A DNA stretch of 64,000 nucleotides. It comes from Changchengzhania lutea (GTDB taxonomy: Bacteria; Bacteroidota; Bacteroidia; Flavobacteriales; Flavobacteriaceae). Under the pieces are notes generated by a model. The model was not told the origin of the DNA, ran no database searches, and saw only the letters and a program-made list of their open reading frames with translations. The position numbers were made by a program, and so were the translations under genes. This document shows positions 7,614 to 27,001 of this stretch, in pieces. Numbering within the stretch: the stretch's first letter is position 1; the number at the start of each line of letters is the position of its first letter. Location: NCBI RefSeq assembly GCF_006974145.1, contig NZ_CP039456.1:1022001-1086000 (forward strand), read 5' to 3'.

Positions 7614-7740
7614 AACCACTAACCAATAAAAACCAACCAAAAAAACCAAAAATTTAAAGAGAGAATCTATTTTTTTTCAATAATGTGGCTAATTCTTTTG
7701 TAAATGTAATTCTGTAGTTTAAAGAGTATCTAAGGAAAGT

Positions 7741-7760
7741 CTTAAGATTGGCTTAAAAAT
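7741..7760 (-). promoter_or_regulatory. Second response-regulator-type box
   Basis: CTTAAGATTG followed with an 11-bp period by CTTAAAAAT. It overlaps the end of the kinase gene, about 270 bp upstream of the efflux operon start. It may be an auxiliary upstream site or a chance partial match. Confidence 0.4.
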
Positions 7761-9126
7761 GAACAGAAAAAATAGTTCCGATGCCCAATTTACTTTCTAC
7801 TTCAATACTTGCACCAATAGCATCAGCAGCCTTTTTTGCAATCGACAGCCCTAATCCATTACCAGAGATATTTTTATGATTTAAAGCATCTGATCTGAAG
7901 AAATGATTGAATAAATTGTTCAAATCTTCTTTTTTAATTCCTATTCCTTCATCTTGAACCTTACAAACAGTTTTAGAGTCCAATTGTGTAATTGAAATAT
8001 AAATCTTGGTAGCATCCTTGGTATATTTTATCGCGTTGCTAATAATATTTTCCAATATTAAATTGCTAAAATATTGAGGTACTAACGTCTCTTTTTCAAT
8101 ATCATTTTTAAAATTTACAGAAAGCTTCTTTTCTGATATCTGTTTTTTGTGTCTTGAAAGAATTTCGTCGATTAAAGCCGCTAAGGGAATTAAAGCCTTA
8201 TTGGTAGTTTGTGAATTTGTGTCCAATCTTGCCAAAAGTAAAAGTTGCTCTAATGTAGCAGTCATTCGGTCTATTTCTGAAAGACTGAACTTGATTTTCT
8301 CTTCATATTCTGCTCGTTCCCTTGGCTTGCGAATTAAAACCTCTAATGTGCCTTTTAAGGTTGCTAAAGGTGTACGTAATTCGTGAGAAGCATCTGATGT
8401 AAACTGACGTTCTCTTTCCATCGCATTCTCAATACGCTGCAATAAATCATTTATTCCAGAAGACAAATCAAAAAGTTCATCTTTATTTTGGGGAAGTGCA
8501 ACGCGCTCGTTTAAGTTGTTTCTTGTAATTCTATTGGTTGTTTCTGTTACGTTCTTAACAGGTATGATGCTTCTACCAGCTATGTATTTGGAAATAAAAT
8601 AGAGGCTCGCTAAAAGAAGTAAGTAGACAAAAAGTAGAATATTTCTTAAATTAAGTAATACCATTTGTGAAGCTTCCAATGACATAGCCGCTACGATAAA
8701 ACCTTTTATCTTACCATCTTCTTCTATTGGTAATTGAATCTGTCTAATGGGTTTATTATTGAGAATCTCATTATAGCTTCCGCCAAAATTCGCTTTAGTA
8801 TTGTAATCGAGTTGGTTTTCTTTAAGGTTTGGGGATTTATCCATAAATGTCCCGTTCTTATCCAAAATTTGAATAAAAACAGGGTTTACCTGAACTTCTC
8901 TATGTTCTCTTTCTTCCCACTCTTTTTTGTTTTTTATTTTGATACTGTCCCCAACTATTTTCATTTCTTCTGTATGCTTTTCTGCTTCAAAAGACAGGTC
9001 GCTATCCAAATTTTGATACACAACACCTTTAACAACAAAGTAAACAGATGTAAAGGCTACTGCCATTATTATAGCAGTCGCAATCATATAATGTAGCGCT
9101 ATTCTATTTTTAAAACTTAAATTCAT
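7753..9126 (-). CDS. Sensor histidine kinase, CusS-like
   Basis: A 457-residue membrane kinase. Membrane helices at about residues 13-35 and 162-182 bracket a periplasmic sensor domain of about 125 residues. A HAMP region follows, then a HisKA domain with the phospho-acceptor in SDASHELRTPLA, then a HATPase domain with N box ISNAIKYT, G1 DEGIGI and G2 GNGLGLSIAKK. The gene start overlaps the stop of the response-regulator gene by four bases (ATGA). Its place next to a heavy-metal RND operon suggests periplasmic metal sensing, as in CusS, but no metal-binding motif is obvious, so the signal is inferred from context. Confidence 0.9.
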   Translation of the reverse strand: MNLSFKNRIALHYMIATAIIMAVAFTSVYFVVKGVVYQNLDSDLSFEAEKHTEEMKIVGDSIKIKNKKEWEEREHREVQVNPVFIQILDKNGTFMDKSPNLKENQLDYNTKANFGGSYNEILNNKPIRQIQLPIEEDGKIKGFIVAAMSLEASQMVLLNLRNILLFVYLLLLASLYFISKYIAGRSIIPVKNVTETTNRITRNNLNERVALPQNKDELFDLSSGINDLLQRIENAMERERQFTSDASHELRTPLATLKGTLEVLIRKPRERAEYEEKIKFSLSEIDRMTATLEQLLLLARLDTNSQTTNKALIPLAALIDEILSRHKKQISEKKLSVNFKNDIEKETLVPQYFSNLILENIISNAIKYTKDATKIYISITQLDSKTVCKVQDEGIGIKKEDLNNLFNHFFRSDALNHKNISGNGLGLSIAKKAADAIGASIEVESKLGIGTIFSVHF

Positions 9127-9791
9127 ATTTCCTTAGCAATGTAACCAACGCCTCTAACAGTCTGGATATAGTTTTCGTCCTTTCCTAATTTCAATTTCTT
9201 GCGAAGTGCATTTATAAACACATCTATAACACCTGTATTATAGTCAAAATGGATATCCCAAACGCTTTCAATTATTCGAGACCTTCTACAAACCATACCT
9301 TTATTACGTAATAAGTATTCCAGTAAAGCAAATTCTTTCTGTGTTAAACTTACTTCTTCAGTTCCCTTAAGCACTTGATATGTTGAAGTGTTGAGAGTGA
9401 TATTTCCAATTTTGAAAATGGAATGTTCACCAGATTTCGGTCGTAATTGCACTTTTATGCGTTCCAGTAGTTCTTCAAAATGAAAGGGTTTTTTAATATA
9501 ATCATTAGCACCAGCCTGAAGTCCAAAAACCGTCTCGTCTAATGTGTCCCTTGCGGTTAAAAATATAATAGGTGTTTCCTTAAATTGCTTTCTAAATTGA
9601 CGGCATACTTCAATTCCACTCAACCCAGGAATCATCCAATCTAATAGTAACAAGTCATATTCACCAGAAAGTGCTAATTCCAGTCCTTTTTTCCCATCTT
9701 CTGCAATGTCTATGGCATAGGATTCTTCTTCTAGGCCTTGCTTTAGAAAGCTAAATATTCCAGGCTCGTCTTCTACTATTAGTATTCGCAT
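9123..9791 (-). CDS. OmpR-family response regulator, CusR-like
   Basis: A 222-residue two-domain regulator. The receiver has the acidic pair in VEDEPG, the phospho-acceptor Asp in LLLDWMIPG and the conserved Lys in YIKKPFH. The C-terminal winged helix includes LTQKEFALLEYLLRN and ends with VRGVGYIA, typical of OmpR/PhoB proteins. It is the first gene of a regulator-kinase operon. Its own promoter region carries the same 11-bp-period repeat as the efflux operon, so positive autoregulation plus activation of the pump is the simplest model. Confidence 0.93.
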   Translation of the reverse strand: MRILIVEDEPGIFSFLKQGLEEESYAIDIAEDGKKGLELALSGEYDLLLLDWMIPGLSGIEVCRQFRKQFKETPIIFLTARDTLDETVFGLQAGANDYIKKPFHFEELLERIKVQLRPKSGEHSIFKIGNITLNTSTYQVLKGTEEVSLTQKEFALLEYLLRNKGMVCRRSRIIESVWDIHFDYNTGVIDVFINALRKKLKLGKDENYIQTVRGVGYIAKEI

Positions 9792-12194: not shown

Positions 12195-13187
12195 TCAAAA
12201 CGTAATCCTAACACCTGCCATTTTATGTTCAGAAGTAGACGTAAAAGTGAAATCGGTCTTAAATCGTGGTTCGATTATTTCGCCAGTAACATCACGTTTA
12301 ACTTCTTTTTTAATTCTACGGTTAGCTGCATTTTTCCCAATAATATATCCCATCAAAATAGAAAATGGATAATCTGATGCCCAGTGCACCCTTGTACTCA
12401 TCATTTGAAAAGCCATTATACCTGCTAAAGAATAGCCTACTGGTTTAATCCATTTTACTTCTGGATAGTTAGTGGCTATTACAGTAAGAGTTGCTATATA
12501 GGTTGTCATGTGTCCTGATGGCATGGCATCGTAATTTGGTGTATTGGTTTGGTAGGCTTTAAAACTTGGAAAAGGCCTCCAATGTCCTCCTGGGTTTCCA
12601 CTTTCAATTGCTGCACTTGGGCTTTGTCTTCCTGTGATTCTTTTTAGTATTTGCGTACTTACTCCAGAGGAAATTAACACCTCTATTAATTCACTCGACA
12701 CATTCAATGCGCGATAATCGTTATTAATTTTTCCAGCAATATAAAAACCACCACTTAGCAGTATTGGCGTTAGACCATTTCCTAAATAATAAATTGTTCC
12801 ATTAATATCCTTTGGAAGGAATTCTATACCAAGAACTCTTATATAGCTAACATCTTCCTCCAATCCTAAAGGTTCTCCTAGTTCTTGTGCATTATCCAAT
12901 AGTTTTTGGTCAAAAGGCAATAAAGCTAACGTGCCACCAACTGCCATTCCTGTCCATAACAGATTTTCTTTCTGGACTGTGAATTTACCAAATTCATAAA
13001 TATCACTTGGCACATACCTAAACACATCAAAAAACTTAGGCTTATTATAAGTGTAAGTTACACCATTACTAATTTCGAACGTTTGGGATACTTCAATTTG
13101 TTGTGCGTGATTTGTGTTTGAGATTATGAAACAACTAATGAATATTGATGCTCTAAACAAATTTTTATAATTGTAATTCTGCTTCAT
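12195..13187 (-). CDS. PAP2-superfamily phosphatase, exported
   Basis: A 330-residue protein with an N-terminal signal peptide ending near NHAQQ. The PAP2 acid-phosphatase signature is present in order: KRITGRQSP (C1), DAMPSGHMTTY (C2) and RVHWASDYPFS (C3). These motifs form the phosphohistidine active site that removes phosphate from lipid phosphates such as phosphatidic acid or undecaprenyl pyrophosphate. Several hydrophobic helices surround the motifs. It is longer than the other two PAP2 genes here and lies 54 bases downstream of the HD gene, so it may belong to the same transcript. The substrate is unknown. Confidence 0.88.
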   Translation of the reverse strand: MKQNYNYKNLFRASIFISCFIISNTNHAQQIEVSQTFEISNGVTYTYNKPKFFDVFRYVPSDIYEFGKFTVQKENLLWTGMAVGGTLALLPFDQKLLDNAQELGEPLGLEEDVSYIRVLGIEFLPKDINGTIYYLGNGLTPILLSGGFYIAGKINNDYRALNVSSELIEVLISSGVSTQILKRITGRQSPSAAIESGNPGGHWRPFPSFKAYQTNTPNYDAMPSGHMTTYIATLTVIATNYPEVKWIKPVGYSLAGIMAFQMMSTRVHWASDYPFSILMGYIIGKNAANRRIKKEVKRDVTGEIIEPRFKTDFTFTSTSEHKMAGVRITF

Positions 13188-13241: not shown

Positions 13242-13841
13242 TTAAGCCATAACGCCCGCTTTTAATTTTTCCATTAACATGATATTCTTCTGCTTCTTTT
13301 CTCGAAGCACATTCTTGCCATAATCTGTGTAATATTTATGATTTACAAGAAATTCCAAATTCAATTGATACCATTCTTCATCGGTAAATATTAAATCCAT
13401 ATAGGTTTTCCACTCTTCCCGTAATAATTCGTTTTTAAAAATGTAGTTACTACTAGCCAAATGAAATAAATCAGCATCACATATAATACATTCGAGTAGT
13501 GTTTCAGGATTTTGGGGCATTTTAGTTGCCATAATACAATTCAATATTTGAACTTTAGCACTATTTGAATAATCCAACTCACTTAAATAATCATGGGCAT
13601 AATTAGCACCAATACTTTCGTGACCCACATAATCTTGGGAAATACCCGTATCATGAAATAATGCAGCGATTTTTAATATTTCAATTTCTTCGCCATTTAT
13701 ACCTTCATAATTCCCTATAGTTTCTACATTTTCAAAAACTTCTAGCGTGTGTTTATTGCTATGAAATGGTAACACCTTACATCTGCTATGTGTCAATAAA
13801 TCGAGACAATGTTTTTTAATATTATTTACTTGTGCATTCAT
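13242..13841 (-). CDS. HD-domain metal-dependent phosphohydrolase
   Basis: A 199-residue soluble protein of the HD superfamily. Metal ligands are visible in LPFHSNKHT (first His), ALFHDTG (HD pair) and CDADLFHL (last Asp). It is the intact paralogue of the frameshifted gene at 202-752, with similarity along the full length. It sits seven bases after the small PAP2 gene and is probably translated from the same message. The natural substrate of this subgroup is not known. Nucleotide or phosphate-monoester hydrolysis is the general family activity. Confidence 0.85.
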   Translation of the reverse strand: MNAQVNNIKKHCLDLLTHSRCKVLPFHSNKHTLEVFENVETIGNYEGINGEEIEILKIAALFHDTGISQDYVGHESIGANYAHDYLSELDYSNSAKVQILNCIMATKMPQNPETLLECIICDADLFHLASSNYIFKNELLREEWKTYMDLIFTDEEWYQLNLEFLVNHKYYTDYGKNVLREKKQKNIMLMEKLKAGVMA

Positions 13842-13847: not shown

Positions 13848-14417
13848 TTAAAATTTATATGTAAGCCCAACTAAATATTCACCATTACCACTTTTAAACG
13901 ATAACTCATAATGTTCTTTTTTATATGGTGTGGTAAATAAATATGTACTTCCAACTCCTACGACCATTCCTCCTAAAACATCCCATACATCATGCCTATC
14001 ATCAATACCTTCTATTCGGGTATAAGCTACTAAACCTGCTACTGCGTATGCAGGGATTCCATATTCCCAACCATAACGCCTTTGTAAAAAGGATGCTCCA
14101 GAGAAGGCAACAGCTGTATGTCCTGATGGAAACGCTTTGCCATCTGTTCTACCATCTGGTCTTGGTTTATCTATCGCATATTTTAGTACATAGGCTACAC
14201 CTAATGTCGTGCCATAAGATTTAGCAAACTGCCAAAATCCCTTTTTGTCTTTTTTTGCAACAATCATGATTAGTGACGTCAATGCAGGCGCATGTTGTGC
14301 ATAATCCCCAAATAACTGATAGCCTGTTTCCCTTCTTATTTCTGAAGGTGTATCGACTTCTTGCGCTAACATACAAAACGGTAGTACACCTATTAATAAG
14401 TAAACTATTTGTTTCAT
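13848..14417 (-). CDS. Small PAP2-family membrane phosphatase
   Basis: A 189-residue protein with a signal-like N-terminus and the PAP2 motifs KYAIDKPRPDG, AFPSGHTAVAF and RIEGIDDRHDVWDVLGG. The C-terminal strand ends LVGLTYKF, resembling an outer-membrane or membrane-anchored tail shared with the next gene. It is a tandem paralogue of the gene at 14435, with the same length and layout. Together they probably dephosphorylate lipid phosphates on the periplasmic side. It lies in an operon 17 bases downstream of its paralogue. Confidence 0.88.
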   Translation of the reverse strand: MKQIVYLLIGVLPFCMLAQEVDTPSEIRRETGYQLFGDYAQHAPALTSLIMIVAKKDKKGFWQFAKSYGTTLGVAYVLKYAIDKPRPDGRTDGKAFPSGHTAVAFSGASFLQRRYGWEYGIPAYAVAGLVAYTRIEGIDDRHDVWDVLGGMVVGVGSTYLFTTPYKKEHYELSFKSGNGEYLVGLTYKF

Positions 14418-14434: not shown

Positions 14435-15013
14435 TCAGAATTTATATTTAAAACCTAGCATATAGTCTCCATCACTACTATTAAAAGTGAGCTCCATGTG
14501 TTCCTGCTGGTATTGTGTGGTGAATAGTAAATTACTACCAAGACCAATAGCTGCTCCAGCCAATACATCAAGGATATCGTGCTTTTTTGAATCAATCCTA
14601 CTTGCTGCTGTAAAGCCTGCAAGTACGTAGGCTGGAATACTATATTTAAACCCATACCGTCTATGTATATATCCCGCACTATGAAACGTCGTGGATGTGT
14701 GACCGGATGGGAAAGCATTGTCATTACTCATATCTGGTCGCTGTTTGTTTATACTATACTTTAAACCATAGGTAACAGCTTCGGTTAGCATAAGCCCCTT
14801 TGTAAATTGCCAAGCGCCTTTTTCATCTCCAATAATAAAGGATGTTCCTACTGTGGCTATGGGTAGTGCAAAGAGGATAACATCGCCTATTTTTTGAGTT
14901 GTTCCAACCTGTGGTTTCGTCTCATTGGTGTCTTGTGCTTGTAGTGGAATAGATGTAAAAAACAAAACAGCACATAAAAGCGATAAAATTTTTATATTCT
15001 TTAATATCATCAA
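14435..15013 (-). CDS. Small PAP2-family membrane phosphatase, tandem paralogue
   Basis: A 192-residue protein with signal peptide (cleavage near LQAQD) and motifs KYSINKQRPDM, AFPSGHTSTTF and RIDSKKHDILDVLAG. It is the first gene of the PAP2-PAP2-HD run. A direct-repeat box (15079-15099) lies 66 bp upstream, so the operon likely belongs to the regulon of the two-component pair at 19294-21222. Translation may start at the second Met. Family activity is removal of phosphate from lipid (pyro)phosphates; the exact lipid is unknown. Confidence 0.88.
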   Translation of the reverse strand: MMILKNIKILSLLCAVLFFTSIPLQAQDTNETKPQVGTTQKIGDVILFALPIATVGTSFIIGDEKGAWQFTKGLMLTEAVTYGLKYSINKQRPDMSNDNAFPSGHTSTTFHSAGYIHRRYGFKYSIPAYVLAGFTAASRIDSKKHDILDVLAGAAIGLGSNLLFTTQYQQEHMELTFNSSDGDYMLGFKYKF

Positions 15014-15078
15014 ATTAGGGGTATTGATTAAAGTAGCTTTTTTTATATGCAGATTATTTTATATTAAAAGTAAATGGG

Positions 15079-15099
15079 AAATCTTAAGAAAATTTAAAG
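15079..15099 (-). promoter_or_regulatory. Direct-repeat regulatory box, copy 1 of 5
   Basis: Minus-strand CTTTAAATTTT then CTTAAGATTT with an 11-bp period, 66 bp upstream of the first PAP2 gene. It is related to four further boxes at 18028, 18662, 19239 and 21256. Confidence 0.55.
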
Positions 15100-15124
15100 C
15101 TATAATTCTGATAAATTAGCCGGC

Positions 15125-16006
15125 TTATATTAAAACACTTAAAGATTCTTTTTTAATGGATATTGAAAGTGTAACATCATTAATTTTTGATATTTCGCCA
15201 TCAATCTGTGACTCAAAATAAGCACCTTGTTTTCGAGATAATTTCATTTTTTTTGTTTGATAGCATTTGACTTCTTTAAGTATTTCTGGTTTTTTTATGA
15301 ACATACAAAATCCAAAAAACAACATCTTTAACTTGCTGATTCTTGGCACTATGATAACATCTAAAAGACCATCTTTCAAAGACGCCTTGGGTGTAAGGCT
15401 CATGTTATAACCCATAACGTTTGAGTTTGAAACGAAAATTAAAAACGGGTTAACCACCTCTATATTATCATCGATAGAAATGATGATTTCTTCTTTGTTT
15501 GAAAATTGCTGAAATGATTTTAAGGTTGCTTTTATATAGCACACTAATGTTCTTTTTTGCAACGCTTCATAGTTTTCTATAACATTGGCGGTAAAACCAA
15601 AACCAAGATTACTAAAAAAGTAACGTTGATTCACACCACCGACATCTATCGTTGTGGAATGATTGTTTTTAATAATATAAAGTGCTTTTTTTATATTTTT
15701 CGGAATCTTCAAGTTACAAGCCAATCCATTTCCCGAACCAACTGGGATGATACCTAAAGGGATATTTGTCCCCACCAAAGCAGAAGCGACTTCGTTTATA
15801 GTACCATCTCCACCACAGGCGACAATAATATGAGCTTGCTGACGGATGGACTCCATTGTTAAATCAATGGCGTGTCCTTTATATCCAGAAGATTTAATGG
15901 TTATGTTGTACTTATCTGCTTCAAAGTAATCTTGAAGAAATGGTTCAGAAAAACTATGATGTCCGGAGCCTGCAATTGGGTTTACAATGAAATGGATATC
16001 TATCAC
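15125..16006 (-). CDS. Diacylglycerol-kinase-family lipid kinase (YegS-like)
   Basis: A 293-residue soluble lipid kinase of the DAGK catalytic superfamily, which phosphorylates diacylglycerol, sphingoid bases or related lipids. The N-terminal NPIAGSG, the glycine-rich nucleotide loop GGDGTINEVAS and PVGSGNGLACNL are all present, followed by the beta-sandwich C-terminal domain with LKDGLLDVIIV. It begins one base after the sulfatase-fold gene and is surely co-transcribed with it. With three lipid phosphatases next door, the set can both add and remove phosphate from membrane lipids. Confidence 0.9.
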   Translation of the reverse strand: MIDIHFIVNPIAGSGHHSFSEPFLQDYFEADKYNITIKSSGYKGHAIDLTMESIRQQAHIIVACGGDGTINEVASALVGTNIPLGIIPVGSGNGLACNLKIPKNIKKALYIIKNNHSTTIDVGGVNQRYFFSNLGFGFTANVIENYEALQKRTLVCYIKATLKSFQQFSNKEEIIISIDDNIEVVNPFLIFVSNSNVMGYNMSLTPKASLKDGLLDVIIVPRISKLKMLFFGFCMFIKKPEILKEVKCYQTKKMKLSRKQGAYFESQIDGEISKINDVTLSISIKKESLSVLI

Positions 16007-16007
16007 T

Positions 16008-17984
16008 TTATTTACTCTTAATTTTTAGACCTTCATTTCTATACAGATCATCTGCAACCTCATAAAATGAGATGCTTCTCTTTTCAAATCTCACTTCGGA
16101 AGGAATTGCGCTCAAACTATTATCCGTAGGATTCCAAGAATAGAAATGTGCGTTTTTCTGTTCATCCAATATCAATATCTTATCGTCCTTTAGATAGCCT
16201 AATTTTCTGTAGTTTCCTATAAATGCTCTTTCGTCATCAGGTTGCATGGATAGGATATCCCTTCCGAAGAGATTAGATTTATAATCCCAATGTAAAGTCG
16301 AAAACAGGGTGGGAAATATATCAATTTGTGAAGCTAGTTTGTTTACTTTTTTAGGTTGTTGATTTGGCAAGTTGAAAATTAATGCAGGAATGTGATAGTT
16401 CTTCACATCCAACTCCCACCGTCCAGCACTACTGGCACAATGGTCGCTCATGATTACAAGAACAGTATTTTTAAACCACGGTTTATGTTGCGCTTTTTTT
16501 ATAAATTCGTTAATAGCGTAATCGGTATATTTTACTGCTCCATGTCTGCCTGTACCTGACGGAATATCAATTTTGCCTTCTGGATACGTATAGGGTTTGT
16601 GGTTGGAAGTGGTCATTACGAAGTCGAAAAATGGTTTCCCAGATTCGTGGGCTTTGTCTGCTTCTTTGAGTACTTTGTTGTAAATATCAGTATCACAAAC
16701 TCCCCAAGCATTCTCAAAAGTCACTTCGTCATCTTCAATATTCGTGCGAGTTGTGGTAATGCTTTTATCTAATAAAAATCCTCGCCCTCTATCGACAATA
16801 CTAAATCCGTTGCCCCCGAAATACGTATTCATATTATCAAAATAGCCATCGCCACCATAAAAGAAATTACGCTCGTAACCTTGTTGCTTAAACACCTGGC
16901 CAATGGTAAACAGACCTTGATTGTTTTTTCGTTTTACAATACTACGACCAGGTGTTGGTGGAATGGATAGGGTTATGGCTTCCATACCTCTAACGGTTCG
17001 TGTTCCTGTGGCATATAGGTTTTCAAAAAACAGGCTGTTATTTGCTAGGGAATCTAACGTTGGTGTGATATTATTTTTATTCCCAAATGCCTTTAAAAAA
17101 TCGGCACTTAAACTTTCTATACAAATAAAAATGACATTGGGTTTCATTGGTTGCGAAATGCTATCTGAATTCACAATTGACCTGTAAATAGCATCTTCAT
17201 CTGGATTTACAAGTATATTTTTTGAATCCAAATAACTAGCTTTAACCGTTTGAAAAGCTTCTTCTTCCGGAATGGTTTTGTAGAATTCGTTATAAGACAA
17301 TTCATTATTTCTGAAAGCGGCGAAAAATGAGTAAATACCAGATTTTGCGAGTTCGTTATTATAGCGGTTTCCAGAAAAATCAGCTTGCTTGTTTGTTACA
17401 AAAAATACACTTATTGTTACAATAAACAACCAGGGAATGAATGCTATCAATTTAGGTTTAAATGTAGTTTCACTTATAAAGGTCTTACGAAAATATCCTA
17501 ATTTATATATAATAAAAATACTTGTAAGCACTAATAAAAGCATACTAGCAATAAGCACAGGTAATGGATAGGACTCGTTGATGTTCTTTACAACCTCATA
17601 AGTATAAATCAAATAATCAACCGCAATGAAATTATAACGTCTTTGAAATTCATCCCAAAATGTAAACTCTCCAAAAAAGGAAAAGAATAGAATAAGTACT
17701 CCAATTGAGAATCCAAAATAGGTAATCGCTTTATCTATAATGGAACCGTAGATCCGTTTCGGGAAAATGAGTAAATAAATAAGATACGGAATTGCAAAAA
17801 ATGAAATCGTCGCAATATCGAACAAAAATCCAATTAGAAAGGTGTTCCCCAATGTGAAAAAGTTTTTGTCTACTTCGGAAAAATTCCAAATCAAGAAACT
17901 TAATCTTACTATAAACGATAAAATTAAAAACAAGCCTATATAGGCTTTAAGTAACGCAAATCGCTTCGGGAAAATTTCAAGCAT
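16008..17984 (-). CDS. LTA-synthase-like sulfatase-fold membrane enzyme
   Basis: A 658-residue protein with five membrane helices in the first 200 residues and a periplasmic alkaline-phosphatase/sulfatase domain. The first metal ligand lies in FICIESLSADFL (Glu about 290), the nucleophile Thr in ATGTRTVRG (about 328-330), and a later metal site in VIMSDHCAS. This is the layout of lipoteichoic-acid synthase and phosphoethanolamine or phosphoglycerol transferases. In a Gram-negative organism it probably moves a polar head group from a phospholipid to an envelope glycan or lipid, releasing diacylglycerol. The downstream kinase could recycle that diacylglycerol. A regulatory box lies 44 bp upstream. 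Confidence 0.88.
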   Translation of the reverse strand: MLEIFPKRFALLKAYIGLFLILSFIVRLSFLIWNFSEVDKNFFTLGNTFLIGFLFDIATISFFAIPYLIYLLIFPKRIYGSIIDKAITYFGFSIGVLILFFSFFGEFTFWDEFQRRYNFIAVDYLIYTYEVVKNINESYPLPVLIASMLLLVLTSIFIIYKLGYFRKTFISETTFKPKLIAFIPWLFIVTISVFFVTNKQADFSGNRYNNELAKSGIYSFFAAFRNNELSYNEFYKTIPEEEAFQTVKASYLDSKNILVNPDEDAIYRSIVNSDSISQPMKPNVIFICIESLSADFLKAFGNKNNITPTLDSLANNSLFFENLYATGTRTVRGMEAITLSIPPTPGRSIVKRKNNQGLFTIGQVFKQQGYERNFFYGGDGYFDNMNTYFGGNGFSIVDRGRGFLLDKSITTTRTNIEDDEVTFENAWGVCDTDIYNKVLKEADKAHESGKPFFDFVMTTSNHKPYTYPEGKIDIPSGTGRHGAVKYTDYAINEFIKKAQHKPWFKNTVLVIMSDHCASSAGRWELDVKNYHIPALIFNLPNQQPKKVNKLASQIDIFPTLFSTLHWDYKSNLFGRDILSMQPDDERAFIGNYRKLGYLKDDKILILDEQKNAHFYSWNPTDNSLSAIPSEVRFEKRSISFYEVADDLYRNEGLKIKSK

Positions 17985-18027
17985 TAACTAATGGGTTCTA
18001 TATTAATTTATGCCGAAAGTACTATGT

Positions 18028-18048
18028 GATTCTAAAGAAAATTTAAAG
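18028..18048 (-). promoter_or_regulatory. Direct-repeat regulatory box, copy 2 of 5
   Basis: Minus-strand CTTTAAATTTT then CTTTAGAATC, 11-bp period, 44 bp upstream of the sulfatase-fold gene. It is the best match to the shared consensus. Confidence 0.65.
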
Positions 18049-18074
18049 TCTAAGAAGTGCCTATTCTAAAAAAG

Positions 18075-18109
18075 AAAAAGCCCAAAGCTAACACAGCCCT
18101 GGGCTTTTT
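18075..18109. terminator. Bidirectional hairpin terminator
   Basis: AAAAAGCCCA/TGGGCTTTTT, a 10-bp stem with a 15-nt loop, with A/T tracts on both sides. It ends the PepSY-like transcript. Just beyond are three to four tandem copies of AACCAATC. Confidence 0.75.
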
Positions 18110-18158
18110 CAACCAATCAACCAATCAACCAATCATCTATGAAAAACTTAATTAAACA

Positions 18159-18620
18159 CTAATCATTATCTTCTTTACCATCACCCTTTATTACTTCTTG
18201 TTTTACAACTTTACCGCTAGAATTTATTACTACTTCCATCTCATCTTCTCCCTTTTCTATTTCAAATTCATAGACTGTTCCAGTTGCAGTTTCAGAAAGC
18301 TCCATGTCTTCAATATTATAACCTTCAAAGTTAGCATTAAGTGGATCCATAACAACTTGTGGGACTTCAGATTCGGCAACTTCATATTCCGTCTCTACCC
18401 AAGTACCATTTTGCATAAAATTTGAAGTATGCTCTTTTCCGTCGAGCTTAAATTCTGCTTCCCATTCGGTGTCCGATTCTTTTTCCCATTCTACATCTGT
18501 TGCATTAGGAAATCTTGTAGTAAATGCATCTTTTACTTTTTGAGGCGTAGAAGCATCTTTGTCACAGGCAATAAAGCTTAATAATATACCAGCCAAAGCT
18601 AGTAATGTAATTTTTTTCAT
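18159..18620 (-). CDS. PepSY-like periplasmic lipoprotein
   Basis: A 153-residue lipoprotein with lipobox SFIAC (Cys about 19). Two PepSY-like halves follow: FTTRFPNATDVEWEKESD with WEAEFKLDGKEHTSNF, and a second copy ending VYEFEIEKGEDEMEVVINS. This PepSY-like or beta-lactamase-inhibitor-like fold is common in Bacteroidota beside envelope two-component systems. The function is unknown, perhaps binding or inhibition of an envelope protein. A regulatory box lies 42 bp upstream. The promoter region now contains the truncated end of a TonB-receptor gene. Confidence 0.8.
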   Translation of the reverse strand: MKKITLLALAGILLSFIACDKDASTPQKVKDAFTTRFPNATDVEWEKESDTEWEAEFKLDGKEHTSNFMQNGTWVETEYEVAESEVPQVVMDPLNANFEGYNIEDMELSETATGTVYEFEIEKGEDEMEVVINSSGKVVKQEVIKGDGKEDND

Positions 18621-18639
18621 TAGAGTTTAATTTTAAGAA

Positions 18640-19203
18640 TTATAACACAAATATATTTCCTAATTCTAAAGATGATTTAAAGAAAATCTCGCTACCACGC
18701 AACACCACTTTTCCGTCTTGGTCACAAGCAACTCCAGGCATTATTTTCATTGCATCGACCACAGAACCACCAGATTGTGCCACATTATCGTCAAGACTAA
18801 AGGTTTTTTTATCTAGTGCCGAATTTACGGTTGTTCTTTTTGCTTGAATAGTCACTTCGTCCAACGCTTCCGCAGATGGCTTGAGTTCTATTTTTCCTAA
18901 ATCGAAAATTGGGTTCAATCCGCCAAAAGCAATTTTTCGCTGTACAGCTTCAAAACCCAAATAGGTAATATTTACGGTATACTTTCCTGTTTTTAAATCC
19001 TTAATTTCAAACCGACCATTGTCATCAGTTATTGTTCCCATGACTATAGCATTGGTAGTTTCATCATTTACAGAAACACTAACAAAAGGCAATATTTGCT
19101 GGGTTTCTTGGTCTATAATTTGACCGGTAATAGTTATTGTTTCTTGAGCGTTTACAAGAAATAAAAAAAAGAGTAGAATAATTGTAGACGTGTATTTTAT
19201 CAC
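18640..19203 (-). pseudogene. TonB-dependent outer-membrane receptor, truncated
   Basis: The first about 175 residues match the start of outer-membrane beta-barrel receptors: signal peptide, a CarboxypepD_reg-like domain (QETITITGQIIDQETQQILP onward), a conserved EVTIQAKRT linker and the start of the plug (VVDAMKIMPGV, KVVLRGS). Intact relatives run to about 700-800 residues. Here the chain leaves the family after VLRGSE and stops about 15 residues later, just before the next gene. About 600 codons, including the whole barrel, are gone. The box at 18662 lies inside the junction sequence, so the deletion ended next to the PepSY promoter. A functional receptor is impossible. Confidence 0.8.
18662..18682 (-). 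promoter_or_regulatory. Direct-repeat regulatory box, copy 3 of 5
   Basis: Minus-strand CTTTAAATCAT then CTTTAGAATT, 11-bp period, 42 bp upstream of the PepSY-like gene. Confidence 0.6.
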
Positions 19204-19238
19204 TAGATTTTCAATTTAAATAGGGCAAAATAGTAATG

Positions 19239-19259
19239 AAATCTAAAGAGATATTAAAG
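19239..19259 (-). promoter_or_regulatory. Direct-repeat regulatory box, copy 4 of 5
   Basis: Minus-strand CTTTAATATCT then CTTTAGATTT, 11-bp period, 36 bp upstream of the truncated receptor gene. Confidence 0.55.
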
Positions 19260-19293
19260 GAATCAACTTTTTAGTATTAAAACTGAAAAGCTA

Positions 19294-20544
19294 TTATTTT
19301 GAAAAATCTATTGAAAACACATGATGGTCAATCTCAAATTGATATGAGATTTTAAACCCATATAAATCGCATATTTTCTTAACGATTGCCAATCCAAGTC
19401 CTGTGGATTGGTAACCGTTGGACTCTCTATAAAAGCGTAAAAACAAATTCTCGGGATGTACTAAAGCTTTTTCTCCAAAATTTGAAATGATAAGAAAGTT
19501 ATCTTTTGTTTTAATTGTAATATCTTCTTCCTTTTTACTGTGTTTGATAGCGTTTGAAATCAGATTATTAATCAAAATATCTGCAAGATACCCATCCATA
19601 GAAACGGATAATTCTTTTTTTGATGTATGAACTAGGTTTACAAATTGAAGCTCTTTAAAGCTTTCAATCTTTTCATTTATCAAATCTGTTAAATTAATAT
19701 TTTCAATATTTACAAATTGACTGTTATCAATTTTAGTTAACGTCGTGATGCGTTTATTAAGTTGTTTTAAGCGTTGTATATCCTTTTGGATAGAGGTTAT
19801 TTGCTCAAATTGCTTATCGCTAATTTCATGTTCGTTAATGATATTGTCAATTTTTGCTTGAATGATTGCTAATGGTGTTTGCATTTCATGAGAGACATCT
19901 TCTGTAAATTGTTTTAAACTCTCATAATCTGTCCTCACTTTATTTGTGAGTAAAGAAATTTCATTTTTTAATTCTGAAAACTCTAGCACATCACTATCTA
20001 TAAGTTCAATGGGTACTTTTGAAGTTAAAGAGAAACGTTTCATCTGCTCCAAATTTTTAAAAAATGGGCTCCATAATTTAAGATTTCTGGTTGTATTAAA
20101 ATAAAAAAGAAAAATAAATGCCAAAACGAATATAGCTATATTGGAAATAACTATGGCCAATAAAAAGTCTTCAGACTCTACCACCATATTTCTTATAGTT
20201 ATTTGGTAGTTTGTTCCATTTATTACTTTGTAGGTTGAAAGTTCCCGGAACAATTCCATTTCATCCTCGGAAGGATCGTAAATAATAGTGTCTTTTAATA
20301 TCTCTTTGCCTAAACGCTCTACTTTTTTGACTTCCATAACAGGCGGCAAAGAGTAAAGGGTATGGTTCTTTTCTAAAGCATCTACAATTCTGACTTCGGT
20401 TGAATATAGTACTTCTTCAACTTCACTTTCTAAAAGGGTTTTAGTATAAACATATAACGCAATTGAACTCAATAACGCTAAGAACAAACCTGTTAGAAGG
20501 AAAGTTTTAGAAGTTTTTTTTATGAGTTTCGTTTTTTTAGTCAC
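19294..20544 (-). CDS. Sensor histidine kinase
   Basis: A 416-residue kinase with membrane helices at about residues 14-35 and 130-150, a periplasmic segment of about 95 residues, and no clear HAMP. The acceptor His is in TEDVSHEMQTPLAI, the N box in NLISNAIKHSK and the G2 box in STGLGLAIVKK. The usual DxGxG G1 motif reads ISNFGEKAL, a divergence seen in several flavobacterial kinases of this type. It lies three bases after the response-regulator gene. The surrounding lipid and envelope genes carry a shared box, so it probably senses envelope state. Confidence 0.88.
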   Translation of the reverse strand: MTKKTKLIKKTSKTFLLTGLFLALLSSIALYVYTKTLLESEVEEVLYSTEVRIVDALEKNHTLYSLPPVMEVKKVERLGKEILKDTIIYDPSEDEMELFRELSTYKVINGTNYQITIRNMVVESEDFLLAIVISNIAIFVLAFIFLFYFNTTRNLKLWSPFFKNLEQMKRFSLTSKVPIELIDSDVLEFSELKNEISLLTNKVRTDYESLKQFTEDVSHEMQTPLAIIQAKIDNIINEHEISDKQFEQITSIQKDIQRLKQLNKRITTLTKIDNSQFVNIENINLTDLINEKIESFKELQFVNLVHTSKKELSVSMDGYLADILINNLISNAIKHSKKEEDITIKTKDNFLIISNFGEKALVHPENLFLRFYRESNGYQSTGLGLAIVKKICDLYGFKISYQFEIDHHVFSIDFSK

Positions 20545-20547
20545 GTA

Positions 20548-21222
20548 CTAATCTTCTATAAATTTATAACCACTTCCATAAGCAGTTTTAATATATTTTG
20601 CACCTTCAGCAGTTAACTTTTTGCGTAAATTATTGATGTGGACATAAATAAAATCAAAATTATCGAGTAAATCACTATCATCGCCCCAAAGATGCTCTGC
20701 AATAATTTCTTTTGAGAGTACGCGTCCTTTATTGGATATAAAAAATACGAGCAAATCGTATTCCTTTCGTGTTAACGGCATTGCTTTACCATCTATATAC
20801 GCTGTTCTTGATTTGGTGTCTATCCTTATTTCATTGAACTCCATAATCTCGTCGCCACCGTATTTACCACGACGAAGCACTGCATTGATACGAGAGTTTA
20901 GTTCTGCTAAATGGAAGGGTTTGGTGATGTAATCATCTGCTCCTAAATCTAGCCCTTCTAACTTATCTGTCAACGAATTATTCGCTGAAATGATAATAAC
21001 TCCAGATCTTTTCTTTTCTTTTTTAATGGTTTTAAGCACATCAAGACCGCTTCCAGAAATTAAGTTGATATCAAGAATAATAATGTCATAATCGTAAATA
21101 GCTGCTTTTTCTAAAGCCTCACCAAAATCTGAAGCAACTTCACAAATATTGCCATCACGTTGTAGATACGTAACTATGGATTGTTGTAAATCGAGTTCGT
21201 CTTCAGCTATTAGATATTTCAT
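20548..21222 (-). CDS. OmpR-family response regulator
   Basis: A 224-residue regulator with receiver motifs AEDELDLQQ, phospho-acceptor Asp in IIILDINLISGSG and Lys in YITKPFHLAE, plus a winged-helix domain (LTRKEYDLLVFFISN, then YGSGYKFIED). It is the first gene of the regulator-kinase pair. A direct-repeat box lies 34 bp upstream of its own start and four related boxes precede nearby lipid and envelope operons. I infer that this protein is autoregulated and controls that set. Confidence 0.92.
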   Translation of the reverse strand: MKYLIAEDELDLQQSIVTYLQRDGNICEVASDFGEALEKAAIYDYDIIILDINLISGSGLDVLKTIKKEKKRSGVIIISANNSLTDKLEGLDLGADDYITKPFHLAELNSRINAVLRRGKYGGDEIMEFNEIRIDTKSRTAYIDGKAMPLTRKEYDLLVFFISNKGRVLSKEIIAEHLWGDDSDLLDNFDFIYVHINNLRKKLTAEGAKYIKTAYGSGYKFIED

Positions 21223-21255
21223 CTCTATAAATTTAAGACAATAAAATTACTATTC

Positions 21256-21276
21256 GATTCTAAATTTATTCTAAAG
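21256..21276 (-). promoter_or_regulatory. Direct-repeat regulatory box, copy 5 of 5
   Basis: Minus-strand CTTTAGAATAA then ATTTAGAATC, 11-bp period, 34 bp upstream of the response-regulator gene itself. Confidence 0.55.
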
Positions 21277-21600: not shown

Positions 21601-21912
21601 TTCAAATCTTAAAAACGACAGGCTCGTATTGACTTTTTAATTCTTTAAATTCACTTAAGATTTCTTTATTAAATTTGAAGTGTGGCAAAAAATTCAATCA
21701 ACTTGTATAAGCTATATGATATGCTTGGATTTCTTTATTATGAGTAGCTCTAGATTTTTTTTTTGCGTTTTGTAGATAAGTAATTTTAAAGGCATGTAAA
21801 ACATTAATTTAAAAGCATAAAATAAAATGTTTTCTAATATAAATTTAGATAAATTTAACATAATTATAAATACACCTTCAATTTTTAGTACTTACTTTGT
21901 TAAATAAGTTTA
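21601..21912. other. Intergenic region, no feature recognised
   Basis: About 310 AT-rich bases between the channel remnant and the next plus-strand gene. Besides T tracts I see no coding frame, hairpin of note or repeat. A promoter for the gene at 21970 probably lies near its 3' end. Confidence 0.4.
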
Positions 21913-23308: not shown

Positions 23309-23345
23309 AGAGAATCTTTAGATTAAAATTTAATTATTATTGTTA

Positions 23346-25076
23346 ATGCAAAAAAAACTTAACCAAATCGAAGCTACTGCCATTTGTGGAAACGATATAA
23401 GTTCATCCTGTTTATACGTCTCGGCACTTGCTATTGTATATGCTGGTCAGTATGCTTGGATATCACTACTTATAGTGGCAACTGTATTATTCTTTTTTAG
23501 AAAAATATATGGGGAGGTTGTTGGTGCACTTCCGTTAAATGGTGGTGCATATAATGCGCTTTTAAACACCACAAAAAAATCTACAGCATCATTGGCAGCC
23601 TCACTAACGGTATTGTCTTATATGGCAACTGCGGTAATATCAGCGAGTGAAGCAGTAAAATATATGCACAGTATCTGGTCTGTAGTTCCTATTATTCCGT
23701 CAACTATTGTTTTGATGTTGCTATTTATGGGATTGGTAATCATTGGAATAGGAGAATCATCAAAAGTTGCTATTGCCATTTTCCTTTTTCATCTCTTATC
23801 TCTAACACTCCTCTGCGGATTTTGTCTTTACTTTTTCTGGCAGAATGGGACGTCAACATTGTTTGCAAATTTTAATACTCCTGTTAAAGGTGGTATTGTG
23901 AGTGCTCTATTTTTAGGCTTTTCAGCTGCTATGCTAGGTATTAGTGGATTTGAAAGTTCTGCCAATTATGTTGAAGAACAAGAAAAAGGAGTATTTCCGA
24001 AAACCTTAAGAAATATGTGGATTGTTGTTACCATTTTCAATCCATTAATCGCTTTTCTGGCTTTGGCCATATTACCGATGGATAATGTTATAGCTAACCA
24101 AGATGCTTTACTTTCTGTTTTAGGTAATACCGCTTCTGGCAATTGGCTCTCATTACTAATTGGTATTGATGCTGCTTTAGTTTTGAGCGGAGCTGTATTA
24201 ACGTCTTTTGTAGGTGTAGGTGGGTTAATGCAGCGTATGACTCTGGATCGCATACTACCAAAAGTATTATTGAAAAAAAATAATCGTGGAAGTTTTTATT
24301 TGATATTCATTCTCTTCTTCATTTTGTGTGCTTCAATTCTTTTAGTCACTAAGGGAGACCTTGCGAAATTGGCCGGTGTTTATACTATTGCCTTTCTCTC
24401 GGTAATGGTGCTGTTTGGTATTGGTAATTTATTACTTAAGGTAAATCGTTCAAGGTTACCTAGACCAGAGCGGTCAAGTTGGCTTGGTTTGTTTATTGCT
24501 ATAGCTGCTGTAATAGCGGCTATTATTGGTAATATTGTTTTAAACCCACAATATCTCGCTATTTTCATTGAATATTTGCTGCCCACTTTAGCTGTTGTTT
24601 ATTTTATGCTATACAGAACACATATCTACAAACTATTCTTAAAAATTATTGCGTATCTATTTCCTGATAAAGGCACTTTATTTCAAATGTTGAACAAAAA
24701 AACAAAGCAACTTTTAGCAGAAATAAATAACCAACAGTTTGTATATTTTACCAATCATGATGATATTGCAACTCTCAATAAAGTAATGCTTTATATAAAA
24801 AATAATGAGCCTACGCGAAAAATTAAAATTGTGGCGGTACTTGATAAAAATAAAAGCATAGCAAAAAATTTAATTAATGATGTAAAAGTTCTTGATAGAG
24901 CCTATCCCGAAATCAATATAGAATTTATTGAAGAACCTGGAACTTTCGGTCCCGAAAAAATTAATGAGCTTTCAGAGCGCTGGCATATTCCTAGCAATTT
25001 TATGTTTATTGGCTCACCTGGATATAAGTTTCCCTATAAGATTCAAGAATTGGGAGAAGTTCGACTAATCATTTAA
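23346..25076 (+). CDS. APC-superfamily amino-acid permease
   Basis: A protein of about 576 residues with roughly 12 membrane helices in the first 435 residues and a soluble C-terminal domain of about 130 residues. The first helix has AICGNDISSSCLYVSALA and helix 6 GISGFESSANYVEEQE, which match the unwound substrate-binding helices of APC amino-acid transporters. I start it at MQKKLNQ (23346); a TTG two codons earlier is less likely. The C-terminal part (VYFTNHDDIATLN onward) has alternating strands and helices, as in universal-stress-like or regulatory domains. The substrate is unknown. The gene ends 8 bases inside the converging patatin fragment. Confidence 0.85.
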   Translation: MQKKLNQIEATAICGNDISSSCLYVSALAIVYAGQYAWISLLIVATVLFFFRKIYGEVVGALPLNGGAYNALLNTTKKSTASLAASLTVLSYMATAVISASEAVKYMHSIWSVVPIIPSTIVLMLLFMGLVIIGIGESSKVAIAIFLFHLLSLTLLCGFCLYFFWQNGTSTLFANFNTPVKGGIVSALFLGFSAAMLGISGFESSANYVEEQEKGVFPKTLRNMWIVVTIFNPLIAFLALAILPMDNVIANQDALLSVLGNTASGNWLSLLIGIDAALVLSGAVLTSFVGVGGLMQRMTLDRILPKVLLKKNNRGSFYLIFILFFILCASILLVTKGDLAKLAGVYTIAFLSVMVLFGIGNLLLKVNRSRLPRPERSSWLGLFIAIAAVIAAIIGNIVLNPQYLAIFIEYLLPTLAVVYFMLYRTHIYKLFLKIIAYLFPDKGTLFQMLNKKTKQLLAEINNQQFVYFTNHDDIATLNKVMLYIKNNEPTRKIKIVAVLDKNKSIAKNLINDVKVLDRAYPEINIEFIEEPGTFGPEKINELSERWHIPSNFMFIGSPGYKFPYKIQELGEVRLII

Positions 25077-25599
25077 TGTAAAGTTTTTGTTTTATTTCAT
25101 CTATACTTTCCATCGTAGCTTCATAGCCTATATCAAAAAGTTCGTTGGATCTTTTTACGTCGAACATCCCATATTTAAAAGACTTTTTGATTTCGATTGC
25201 AATATTACATTGGTGCAGGCGATGTTGCATTGTTCCCCAAATAGCAAGCTGTAAACATCGCTCGGCAATATTTCTGAATCCTCTTATTTCATCTCTAGTT
25301 TCGTGAGGACAAACACTAATTCCTATTACTTTCTCGCAATGTTTTAATAATGGCTCTACTGGAAGATTATTTAATAATCCACCATCTACGTATGTGTTTC
25401 CATTAATTATGACCGCCTTAAACAATAGAGGCAACGCACAAGATGCCGCTAAAACCTCAAACAACTCACCTTGTGAGGTTATCTCGAATTTCCCCGAGTT
25501 GATATTAGAAACACAAATGTGTAAAGGCAGTTTTAATTCTTCAAACTTATTATTAGCTATATGGTTTTTCAAAAAATCTTTTAGATAGGTCACTAGCAT
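25069..25599 (-). pseudogene. Patatin-like phospholipase, C-terminal fragment
   Basis: A 176-codon frame with the patatin oxyanion/Asp region (ASCALPLLFKAV and NTYVDGGLLNNLPVEPL, the catalytic Asp in DGG). The N-terminal third, with the glycine-rich loop and the GxSxG nucleophile, is absent. The apparent ATG lies inside the terminal inverted repeat of the adjoining IS4-family element, so the element supplies the start. The missing N-terminal part is not found on the far side of the element either, so sequence was also deleted. Without the Ser it cannot be a lipase. Confidence 0.85.
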
Positions 25600-26976
25600 C
25601 CGAAAGTTTTTAGAGAAAAGCAGAAATCATAGGTCTATCCCAATGTTTTCGTTTAAAATATTAGATTATCCAGAAAATAAGTCTGCGTCAAACACCCATT
25701 CCTTTTGTGTAGTAAACGTGACCTTACGCACGCCTTCTCTTACGTGATTGCATACATAATCCAGTGATAGATAATGATACAGGCAGAATCTTATTTTTTC
25801 TGATAAATTGGAAAAAGCAACTGCTTTTTTGGAGATAGTTCGTTTTATGAGCTCTAAGAGCAGATAATTTATCAGGGCTACATATATTTGGGACTTTACT
25901 GCATTTTCACTGGTTCCCCAAAAGGTCTTTACCTGTAGGTTTTGTTTTAAGGCTTTAAAAAACAGTTCTATGTCCCAACGTTTCTTGTACAGTTCCGCAA
26001 TGGTATTGTATTCCCGGTCAAGTTGGTTTGTAACAATGGCTATCACTTTGTTTTCATCTTCTTTACAGACGTGTGCCAATCTTAGTTTTTGTCCTGAAAT
26101 CCCTGTTTCCATTGCCTTGTTTGAAGTCAGTTGGATTATTTCATCTTTCAGTATATTTTGGTCAACGTTATCCGGTAATTCTAGTTCTTCTATCGTTTGG
26201 TACAACGTATTGGACTTGATCCTGGTAACAAATACATTTTCTGCCTTTATCCTGTTGAGCATCAGTTCAAAATCAAAATAAGCCCTATCTTCAACTATAA
26301 TGGTGTCTTTAGGATAAATCAATTGCTTTAACCCATATCTGTCGTGCACCTTTGCTTCTGTAATATTTACCACATCCGGTATCATTAAATTGTAATCCCA
26401 ACTTGTATGTAATTTAATGCCCCCTTTTGCTGTCCGAAACTCTGCCCAATCAAACATGGCCAAGCATAAGGATATCGTTGAGCTATCTATTAGTTTAACA
26501 ACCTTGCCCTTGATCTCTTTTATGATGTGGGTATTGTGATGTTCTTTCAGCACTGATTTATAATGGCTCAATAAACGATAATACAAACTCTCAAACACGC
26601 GCCAGTCCCTGATTTTATTGCCATCACTCATTGTGGAACGCGCAGGGCTTTGGCGCAGGCCCAAGTCGTTTATGAAAATTTCGCTTACTCCGATCCCTGC
26701 CGATATATCATTCAAGCTCTGGCACTTATTGAGCTGTCCGAAAGTTAGAGCTACAAACTGATCGTATGTTCTGTATTTATGAACACCTTTGTCCGTTTTG
26801 TAAGTATTTGTGCAACTTTTAATTAACCAAGGTGGTACTAAATCTAATAGTTGCCGAATTATTGGTTTATTGGTATTTTTGTTTCACCTGAAGAGTCCCA
26901 TATTTGAAAAGTTTTTCGTAGAACCCTAAAATAAGAGATTCTGAGGGCTTTTTAAAATAGCGACTTTCGGATGCTA
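25594..26976 (-). mobile_element. IS4-family insertion sequence
   Basis: The ends are perfect 14-bp inverted repeats TAGCATCCGAAAGT at 25594-25607 and its complement at 26963-26976, enclosing one transposase gene. The length is about 1,383 bp. The bases directly outside the ends do not match each other, so no target duplication is visible. That agrees with loss of flanking DNA, because the patatin gene continues only on the left. Confidence 0.88.
25666..26715 (-). CDS. IS4-family DDE transposase
   Basis: A 349-residue transposase from the first in-frame ATG. Catalytic residues: Asp in VVKLIDSSTI, Asp in IIVEDRAYFD and the YREK block YKKRWDIELFFKALKQNL carrying the Glu. The frame is open further upstream to about 26883 and encodes the family N-terminus (RQLLDLVPPWLIKSC, then YDQFVALTFGQLNKC), but I find no ATG, GTG or TTG in frame there. 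The element may use a rare start, or the true start codon may be mutated. It cuts and pastes the element by recognising its inverted repeats. Confidence 0.85.
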   Translation of the reverse strand: MNDISAGIGVSEIFINDLGLRQSPARSTMSDGNKIRDWRVFESLYYRLLSHYKSVLKEHHNTHIIKEIKGKVVKLIDSSTISLCLAMFDWAEFRTAKGGIKLHTSWDYNLMIPDVVNITEAKVHDRYGLKQLIYPKDTIIVEDRAYFDFELMLNRIKAENVFVTRIKSNTLYQTIEELELPDNVDQNILKDEIIQLTSNKAMETGISGQKLRLAHVCKEDENKVIAIVTNQLDREYNTIAELYKKRWDIELFFKALKQNLQVKTFWGTSENAVKSQIYVALINYLLLELIKRTISKKAVAFSNLSEKIRFCLYHYLSLDYVCNHVREGVRKVTFTTQKEWVFDADLFSG

Positions 26977-27001
26977 CTGAATTTTTTTATAAGACGAAGA
27001 A

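Follow-up and report, generated by a model that had tools for sequence, protein, structure and literature searches.

The window analysed here, 64,000 nt of the Changchengzhania lutea genome (contig NZ_CP039456.1, positions 1,022,001 to 1,086,000), carries predicted envelope-lipid genes beside a two-component system (Table 1). The regulator has a receiver and a winged-helix C-terminal domain, as expected of the OmpR/PhoB type, and its best PDB sequence match is BasR/PmrA (8jo2). It was rejected as a PmrA (BasR) equivalog at 154.7 bits against a cut-off of 330 (NCBIfam NF007928). The adjoining kinase is the only PorY-family member in the genome. The sulfatase-fold protein next to the DAG kinase belongs to the LtaS/OpgB type, with five hydrophobic segments (membrane helices), the sulfatase-fold domain and conserved Thr and Asp-His motifs; its best NCBIfam model is OpgB-like, at scores under both the OpgB and the LtaS equivalog cut-offs. 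Assignment as an EptA/MCR phosphoethanolamine transferase was rejected, as the Sulfatase domain alone was found, with no EptA-type N-terminal domain. Likewise, PAP2 phosphatase a reaches 40.5 bits as an LpxE lipid A 1-phosphatase (NCBIfam NF007159, cut-off 177). Because both enzymes fall below these cut-offs, the phosphatase by far, lipid A as the substrate is a guess from context.

Table 1. Genes, boxes and promoter elements of the locus in window coordinates. Distances are those between the box edge and the start of the gene.
Feature	Position	Strand	Details
PAP2 phosphatase c	12195-13187	-	330 aa; linked to the regulon in related loci L166 and L164
HD-domain protein	13242-13841	-	linked to PAP2 in relatives
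PAP2 phosphatase b	13848-14417	-	
PAP2 phosphatase a	14435-15013	-	signal peptide, C-terminal Phe
-7 element, PAP2 operon	15065-15072	-	TACTTTTA
Box, PAP2 operon	15079-15099	-	CTTTAAATTTTCTTAAGATTT; 66 bp; direct reading and genome profile
YegS/DAGK-type lipid kinase	15125-16006	-	operon-internal, without its own box
Membrane LtaS/OpgB-type sulfatase-fold protein	16008-17984	-	658 aa; Sulfatase PF00884; probable head-group transferase
-7 element, transferase-kinase operon	18014-18021	-	TACTTTCG
Box, transferase-kinase operon	18028-18048	-	CTTTAAATTTTCTTTAGAATC; 44 bp; best genome site, E 3e-7
PepSY-like secreted protein	18159-18620	-	PF11396
TonB-dependent receptor remnant	18640-19203	-	187 aa; CarboxypepD_reg-like domain; intact at about 805 aa in relatives (homologue L067)
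-7 element, PepSY-like gene	18648-18655	-	TATATTTG
Box, PepSY-like gene	18662-18682	-	CTTTAAATCATCTTTAGAATT; 42 bp; direct reading and genome profile
-7 position, TonB-receptor gene	19225-19232	-	TATTTTGC; weak
Box, TonB-receptor gene	19239-19259	-	CTTTAATATCTCTTTAGATTT; 36 bp; direct reading; strong versions in relatives
Sensor histidine kinase, PorY family	19294-20544	-	416 aa; NCBIfam NF052314, 405.5 bits, cut-off 350
OmpR/PhoB-type response regulator	20548-21222	-	224 aa; Pfam Response_reg and Trans_reg_C
-7 element, response-regulator gene	21242-21249	-	TAATTTTA
Box, response-regulator gene	21256-21276	-	CTTTAGAATAAATTTAGAATC; 34 bp; direct reading and genome profile
Sixth box	21643-21663	+	CTTTAAATTCACTTAAGATTT; direct reading and genome profile
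-7 element, sixth box	21670-21677	+	TAAATTTG; perfect
APC-family permease	23340-25076	+	original target of the sixth box
Patatin-like gene, 3' part	25069-25599	-	broken by IS
IS copy	25590-26980	-	1391 bp; 99.2% identical to L125:8387-9777

Direct reading bore out an earlier note that had placed five boxes of 11-bp period 34 to 66 bp before gene starts at this locus, and that had called the receptor gene a remnant. Direct repeats of 10-11 bp period at target promoters are an operator trait of OmpR/PhoB-type regulators. The box of the PepSY-like gene now lies inside the 3' end of the receptor remnant. In a relative, the counterpart of the sixth box is found 19 bp ahead of the APC permease gene; here a remnant of the permease 5' end persists at about 21697-21720. 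The 5' part of the patatin-like gene adjoins an efflux operon 1.27 Mb away (L125:8142-8357).

The boxes were sought genome-wide with patterns and with a sequence-only profile. The consensus used to score the motif came from the window itself, and neither the -7 element nor the tolC sites described below played any part in finding it. Allowing at most one mismatch, CTTTANANNNNCTTTAGAAT matched nine times in 4.13 Mb, three of them at the locus, against none for the reversed control. The pattern CTTWARAWNNNCTTWARAW gave ten matches genome-wide against five for its control; seven lay within 14 kb of the window, three of these being a different set. A consensus-only scan of the window returned many 12/17 matches in AT-rich DNA and is weak evidence alone. 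The combined box and promoter profile found exactly seven significant sites in the 4.13-Mb genome (E<=2.1e-4; next best 0.036). Six fall at the locus, and the seventh lies 1.27 Mb distant, upstream of a tolC-MFP-RND efflux operon. This profile, built without the tolC sites, recovers sites upstream of tolC-MFP-RND in this genome and in six other genera.

Conservation among relatives agrees with the genome-wide result. A box matching at least 14/17 positions is present at 50 of the 65 promoters that drive orthologous operon heads, compared with a mean of 0.16 and a maximum of 3 for 300 shuffled consensuses, and precedes only 1 of 39 operon-internal genes. By target, a box precedes the sulfatase gene in 9/10 related loci, the PAP2 gene in 12/16, the TonB receptor in 10/12 and the PepSY-like gene in 11/14, and the same operon heads carry boxes in about 22 genera. 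On the regulator strand of 23 related loci, the noncoding DNA (39 kb) has 67 matches and the coding DNA (302 kb) has 7. The regulator gene itself is preceded by a box in 15 of 24 relatives, mostly at 50-55 bp; in the other nine the box is weak (<14/17), mostly a degenerate copy in the same place, with two or three lacking one. Targets in relatives are the TonB receptor, the PepSY-like protein, the LtaS/OpgB-like transferase with its DAG kinase, PAP2 phosphatases and the efflux pump, and further genes behind boxes encode a GT2 (ArnC-like), a LAB_N and an ArnT-like PMT protein. By predicted function, this list is an envelope-lipid remodelling set.

Sites at E<=1e-3 were found in 20 of 22 genomes with the regulator and in none of 22 relatives without it; of the 63 sites at this threshold, 61 are no more than 20 kb from the regulator. 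One regulator-bearing genome (G148) had no significant site and another (G429) a single marginal one. When distant relatives were scanned with one strict pattern, the matches were scattered and made sense only beside regulator orthologues; in the named-genome scan, Nonlabens antarcticus was the best (75%) among few close named relatives. Since the boxes track the regulator, the lipid and envelope regulon of one two-component system that the earlier note had proposed is supported at the level of sequence, as are its expectations of conservation upstream of orthologues and of scarcity in coding DNA.

Promoters in Bacteroidota are unlike those of E. coli. The Bacteroidota -7 element TAnnTTTG starts exactly 6 bp past the box: of 94 boxes, 70 have it at offset 27 when <=1 mismatch is allowed, whereas any other offset has about 1.3 on average. 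The flanking columns and those separating the box from the -7 element show no conservation in the 94 boxes, so the likeness does not reflect recent shared ancestry. In flavobacteria TAnnTTTG has been mapped as the -7 box of sigma-A promoters (PMC9723704), and the fixed 6-bp gap therefore sets the direct-repeat box at -33, where a PhoB/PmrA-type activator is expected to sit. The fixed element is a new point of this analysis; it had gone unremarked in the earlier note, as had the sixth and the distal seventh box.

We consider it likely that the boxes are operators of the local OmpR/PhoB-type regulator, acting as partner of the PorY-family kinase in class II-type activation of an envelope-remodelling regulon. 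The phosphorylated regulator would bind as a head-to-tail dimer on two 11-bp half-sites (CTTTARATnnT and CTTTAGAATY). Replacement of the -33 element by the box, with the -7 element 6 bp downstream, suggests that it would recruit sigma-A RNA polymerase at each operon head as a class II-type activator, and its own promoter would be included in a positive feedback. From a phospholipid, the sulfatase-fold enzyme may transfer the head group onto lipid A or a glycan as envelope acceptor; the DAG kinase may recycle the leftover DAG, and PAP2 enzymes may take phosphates off lipid A or isoprenoid carriers. The RND pump, TonB receptor and PepSY-like protein would join the lipid enzymes in the regulon, and the signal is probably cationic or membrane-active compounds. 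Because the box overlaps the site of the -33 element, it could also serve a repressor that blocks polymerase until the kinase is signalled. This is improbable, as replacing the -33 element while keeping the -7 element at one fixed spacing is a need of an activator and not of a repressor, and the two tandem pairs 22 bp apart in some promoters also count against it.

Somewhat less probable still is that another OmpR-type regulator binds the boxes, for example the CusR/CzcR-like RR2 (9123-9791), and that the local regulator is a mere neighbour. RR2 has related 11-bp repeats nearby, and weak copies of the box and -7 composite occur at promoters near it. However, its own boxes are CTTAAGATTnn repeats with a palindromic CTTAAG core and face the opposite way relative to their genes, whereas the sites studied here lie beside the local regulator, including on its own promoter, and are absent in relatives that lack it. 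Riemerella PhoP was set aside because its DAP-seq motif differs (core TTTAACA).

The kinase exceeds the PorY-family cut-off and bears the NCBI name T9SS_HK_PorY, and papers on Porphyromonas gingivalis tie PorY and PorX to the type IX secretion system (PMC4800418, PMC8050853), which might suggest that the regulon serves that system. We judge this very unlikely: none of the seven genome sites precedes a T9SS gene, a result that bears on direct and not on indirect control, and each of 29 PorY-family kinases drawn from across the phylum adjoins an OmpR-type regulator of this kind, which calls the label into question. A strict regular expression for the composite found no match at distant PorY-family loci; because the expression also fails on the degenerate regulator box of this genome, the zero count is not evidence of absence there. 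Chance alignment by eye of AT-rich repeats, conceivable in a genome of 34% GC where single half-sites are common, is ruled out for practical purposes by the comparative data (coding versus noncoding matches, offset, genome profile, regulator dependence and shuffled-consensus counts).

Returning to activation by the local pair, we tentatively propose, at somewhat under even odds, that the PorY-family kinases constitute an envelope-sensing system of ancient origin in Bacteroidota, with the OmpR-type regulator encoded next to them as their true partner. In Flavobacteriaceae it would run a PmrAB-like lipid-remodelling and efflux regulon through the box placed 6 bp ahead of the -7 element. The T9SS role of PorY in Porphyromonas would then have arisen by secondary rewiring, or indirectly through changes in envelope lipids. 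The T9SS_HK_PorY label seems to point annotators to the wrong system, and a direct question is raised on the pairing of PorY with PorX. To our knowledge, operator and promoter geometry have been defined for few Bacteroidota regulons; the present analysis supplies both for one regulon, together with predicted sites across more than 20 genera, and offers a candidate circuit that may control envelope-lipid changes like those underlying polymyxin resistance in this group.

Among known systems, PorXY of Porphyromonas gingivalis shares the kinase family, but the C-terminal domain of PorX is an ALP domain rather than an OmpR-type domain, and the PorX gene lies far from that of PorY (PMC8050853), whereas here an OmpR-type regulator adjoins the kinase. 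The mcr-hpap2 and mcr-dgkA pairs also link a head-group transferase with a PAP2 phosphatase or DAG kinase (PMC7559476), although as mobile resistance genes with no such regulon. The lpxE-eptA operon of Capnocytophaga canimorsus likewise joins a flavobacterial lipid phosphatase to a head-group transferase, the two jointly giving polymyxin resistance; it differs in belonging to the lipid A biosynthesis pathway and encoding a true EptA, and the available text of that report mentions no regulator (PMC4730577). ColRS of Pseudomonas places a PAP2 phosphatase and a diacylglycerol kinase under one two-component system (PMC2689224), but DgkA there is a small integral enzyme rather than a YegS-type kinase. 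The ColR box, (T/C)(T/C)NA(C/G)NN(T/C)TTTTT(C/G)AC (PMC2689224), compared by eye with the 94 boxes, gave no match, and identity with ColR was rejected. Parallels are also seen with PmrAB (BasRS) of Salmonella and E. coli, in the OmpR/PhoB-type regulator controlling its own promoter, the direct repeat with a related core (PmrA YTTAAK, PMC10927774) and target genes that alter the charge of lipid A, head-group and sugar transferases among them. The half-site here is mostly CTTTA, with CTTAA occurring, the transferase is LtaS/OpgB-like rather than EptA, the -7 element is of the Bacteroidota type, the kinase is of the PorY family, and the set includes an RND pump, a TonB receptor and a PepSY-like gene. 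We conclude from the sequence data that the pair very probably switches on lipid-remodelling and efflux genes, a layout that resembles the circuit behind polymyxin resistance in E. coli and Salmonella, although the phylum is distant.

All five boxes claimed in the earlier note, each formed by two 11-bp direct half-sites, were found in place on the minus strand, 34-66 bp upstream of the starts assigned to them. The genome is a single contig of 4.13 Mb, in which the window spans G000:C1:1022001-1086000. At ≤1 mismatch, CTTTANANNNNCTTTAGAAT occurs nine times in the whole genome, three of them in the locus, and the reversed-pattern control gave none. A genome search with R1, a 36-position profile of box and promoter whose training set includes the window sites and whose E-values are rough, returned seven sites at E ≤ 2.1e-4, followed by a gap (next, 0.036). 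Six lie inside the window, namely the five reported boxes and one on the plus strand; right behind the latter is a 5'-end remnant of an APC permease gene, the intact copy of which now begins further on without a significant box.

Coordinates of features (window positions unless a genome or locus handle is given; L125 is the region with the distal efflux operon)
Feature	Position	Strand
Reported boxes	15079, 18028, 18662, 19239, 21256	-
Sixth box	21643	+
Seventh R1 site	genome position 2,312,025	
Regulator, OmpR/PhoB-type	20548-21222	-
Kinase, PorY-family	19294-20544	-
APC permease remnant	21697-21720	+
Intact APC permease, start	about 23340	
Insertion sequence copies, each beside one patatin-like half	25590-26980; L125:8387-9777	
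Second regulator, CusR/CzcR-like	9123-9791	
Second kinase	7753-9126	
CTTAAGATTnnCTTAAGAT-like 11-bp repeats	7539, 7741, 9836	+
Weak composite copies	7499-7532; about 7700-7737	-
Broken second copy of CusR/CzcR-like regulator (L017)	G000:C1:1126766	
Direct duplication	36166-38338; 44812-46984	
Imperfect direct-repeat array	38494-39517	

Among 399 family genomes searched, regulator orthologues (66-94% identity) are present in about 23, nearly every one another genus. A named relative, Nonlabens antarcticus, has a regulator with 75% identity. With loci annotated using window proteins as queries and boxes counted at ≥14/17 matches, the box proved conserved upstream of orthologues of the transferase (9/10 loci), PAP2 (12/16), TonB receptor (10/12), PepSY-like (11/14) and regulator genes (15/24, at 50-55 bp in most loci). 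Operon-internal control genes had boxes in 0/10 (DAG kinase), 1/24 (kinase), 0/5 (HD) and 0/5 (PAP2b) cases. The box is also rarer in coding DNA, with seven regulator-strand matches in 302 kb versus 67 in 39 kb of noncoding DNA, and 50 of 65 upstream segments carry it, compared with a mean of 0.16 and a maximum of 3 for shuffled consensuses on identical segments. Both results favor the regulon claim on the points that could have told against it. R1 sites at E ≤ 1e-3 occur in 20/22 regulator-bearing genomes versus 0/22 family genomes without the regulator, four of which gave marginal matches (0.003 to 0.01). No more than 20 kb separates the regulator from 61 of the 63 sites at E < 1e-3 (chance expectation about 1%); many of these regulator-linked sites, unlike those of tolC-MFP-RND operons, went into building R1.

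The seventh site, an independent prediction by R1, stands at the head of a tolC-MFP-RND efflux operon, which begins with a significant R1 site also in genomes G080, G128, G220, G256, G320 and G370. The distal pump is 92.6%, 91.8% and 85% identical to the pump adjoining the regulator in G080, G128 and G220, respectively. A patatin-like gene is split in two: its residues 3-74 are encoded beside the pump, those from 81 to 251 within the window, and both halves abut copies of one insertion sequence (1391 bp, 99.2% identical). The efflux operon was therefore evidently relocated by 1.27 Mb in the window genome, its box carried along, and the insertion sequence pair and split gene are the trace of a large rearrangement. 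Elsewhere in the window are a direct duplication (2173 bp, 99.9% identity) and a repeat array with a unit of about 153 bp (shifted copies 81-83% identical).

In 94 aligned boxes, selected without regard to the -7 element, conservation ends at the box edge and returns exactly 6 bp downstream as TA(C/T)(A/T)TTT(G/A). TAnnTTTG is the flavobacterial sigma-A -7 element (PMC9723704). At ≤1 mismatch it follows the box by 6 bp in 70/94 cases, compared with about 1.3/94 at other offsets, and the box therefore occupies the expected position of the -33 element. Some promoters have two box pairs 22 bp apart, giving four in-phase half-sites. PhoB and PmrA are activators that substitute for the upstream promoter element, and the geometry is as would be expected of an activator standing in for that element in their fashion.

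The CTTAAGATTnnCTTAAGAT-like repeats surround a second OmpR/kinase pair and its RND efflux operon, and the broken regulator copy has the same box. Weak composite copies (box, 6 bp, TACATTTG/A) precede the CzcA-type pump gene and also occur in the gap that separates this gene from its kinase gene; such an arrangement may be general among OmpR-type activators of Bacteroidota. The box regulator has a second clade (loci L088-L094 and L173; 56-60% identical), encoded in several loci a short distance upstream of a gyrB-like gene. Its boxes, for example CTTCAGATTTTCTTTAGAAT, precede small ORFs or untranslated stretches, and its recognition helix reads THMRN in place of VHINN.

The kinase exceeds the cut-off of NCBIfam NF052314 'T9SS_HK_PorY' and is the sole such kinase in the genome. 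An OmpR-type regulator lies directly upstream at 29/29 kinase loci examined (118 Bacteroidota genomes sampled, loci L260-L287; 28/29 kinases above the cut-off), including those of Mucilaginibacter and a Prolixibacteraceae bacterium; these regulators are 43-57% identical to that of the window (its own, 100%). In P. gingivalis, porY is far from porX and its deletion is milder than that of porX (PMC8050853). For both reasons the T9SS label is questionable for most members of the family.

Behind the boxes lie operons for the regulator with its kinase, for a TonB receptor (here a remnant only), for PepSY-like proteins and for the efflux pump. Another pairs a five-helix LtaS/OpgB-type enzyme of the sulfatase fold with a downstream YegS-type lipid kinase, and PAP2 proteins are encoded together with an HD protein. 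Relatives add a GT2, LAB_N and ArnT-like PMT set or a single ArnT-like PMT, DUF347 and additional PAP2 proteins. In LtaS, OpgB and EptA systems, head-group transfer leaves diacylglycerol, recyclable by a kinase; by analogy, the lipid kinase would recycle diacylglycerol left by the predicted head-group transferase. The PAP2 proteins resemble the Porphyromonas gingivalis lipid A phosphatase, predicted to be outer-membrane (PMC12704123), in their signal peptide, few hydrophobic helices and C-terminal Phe. Enzyme substrates and the signal of the putative regulon are guesses from context.

Literature searches found no paper describing the present regulon. Identity with PmrA, ColR, EptA or LpxE was rejected by the membership tests for each. 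The candidate regulon would work in a manner like that of PmrAB and ColRS.
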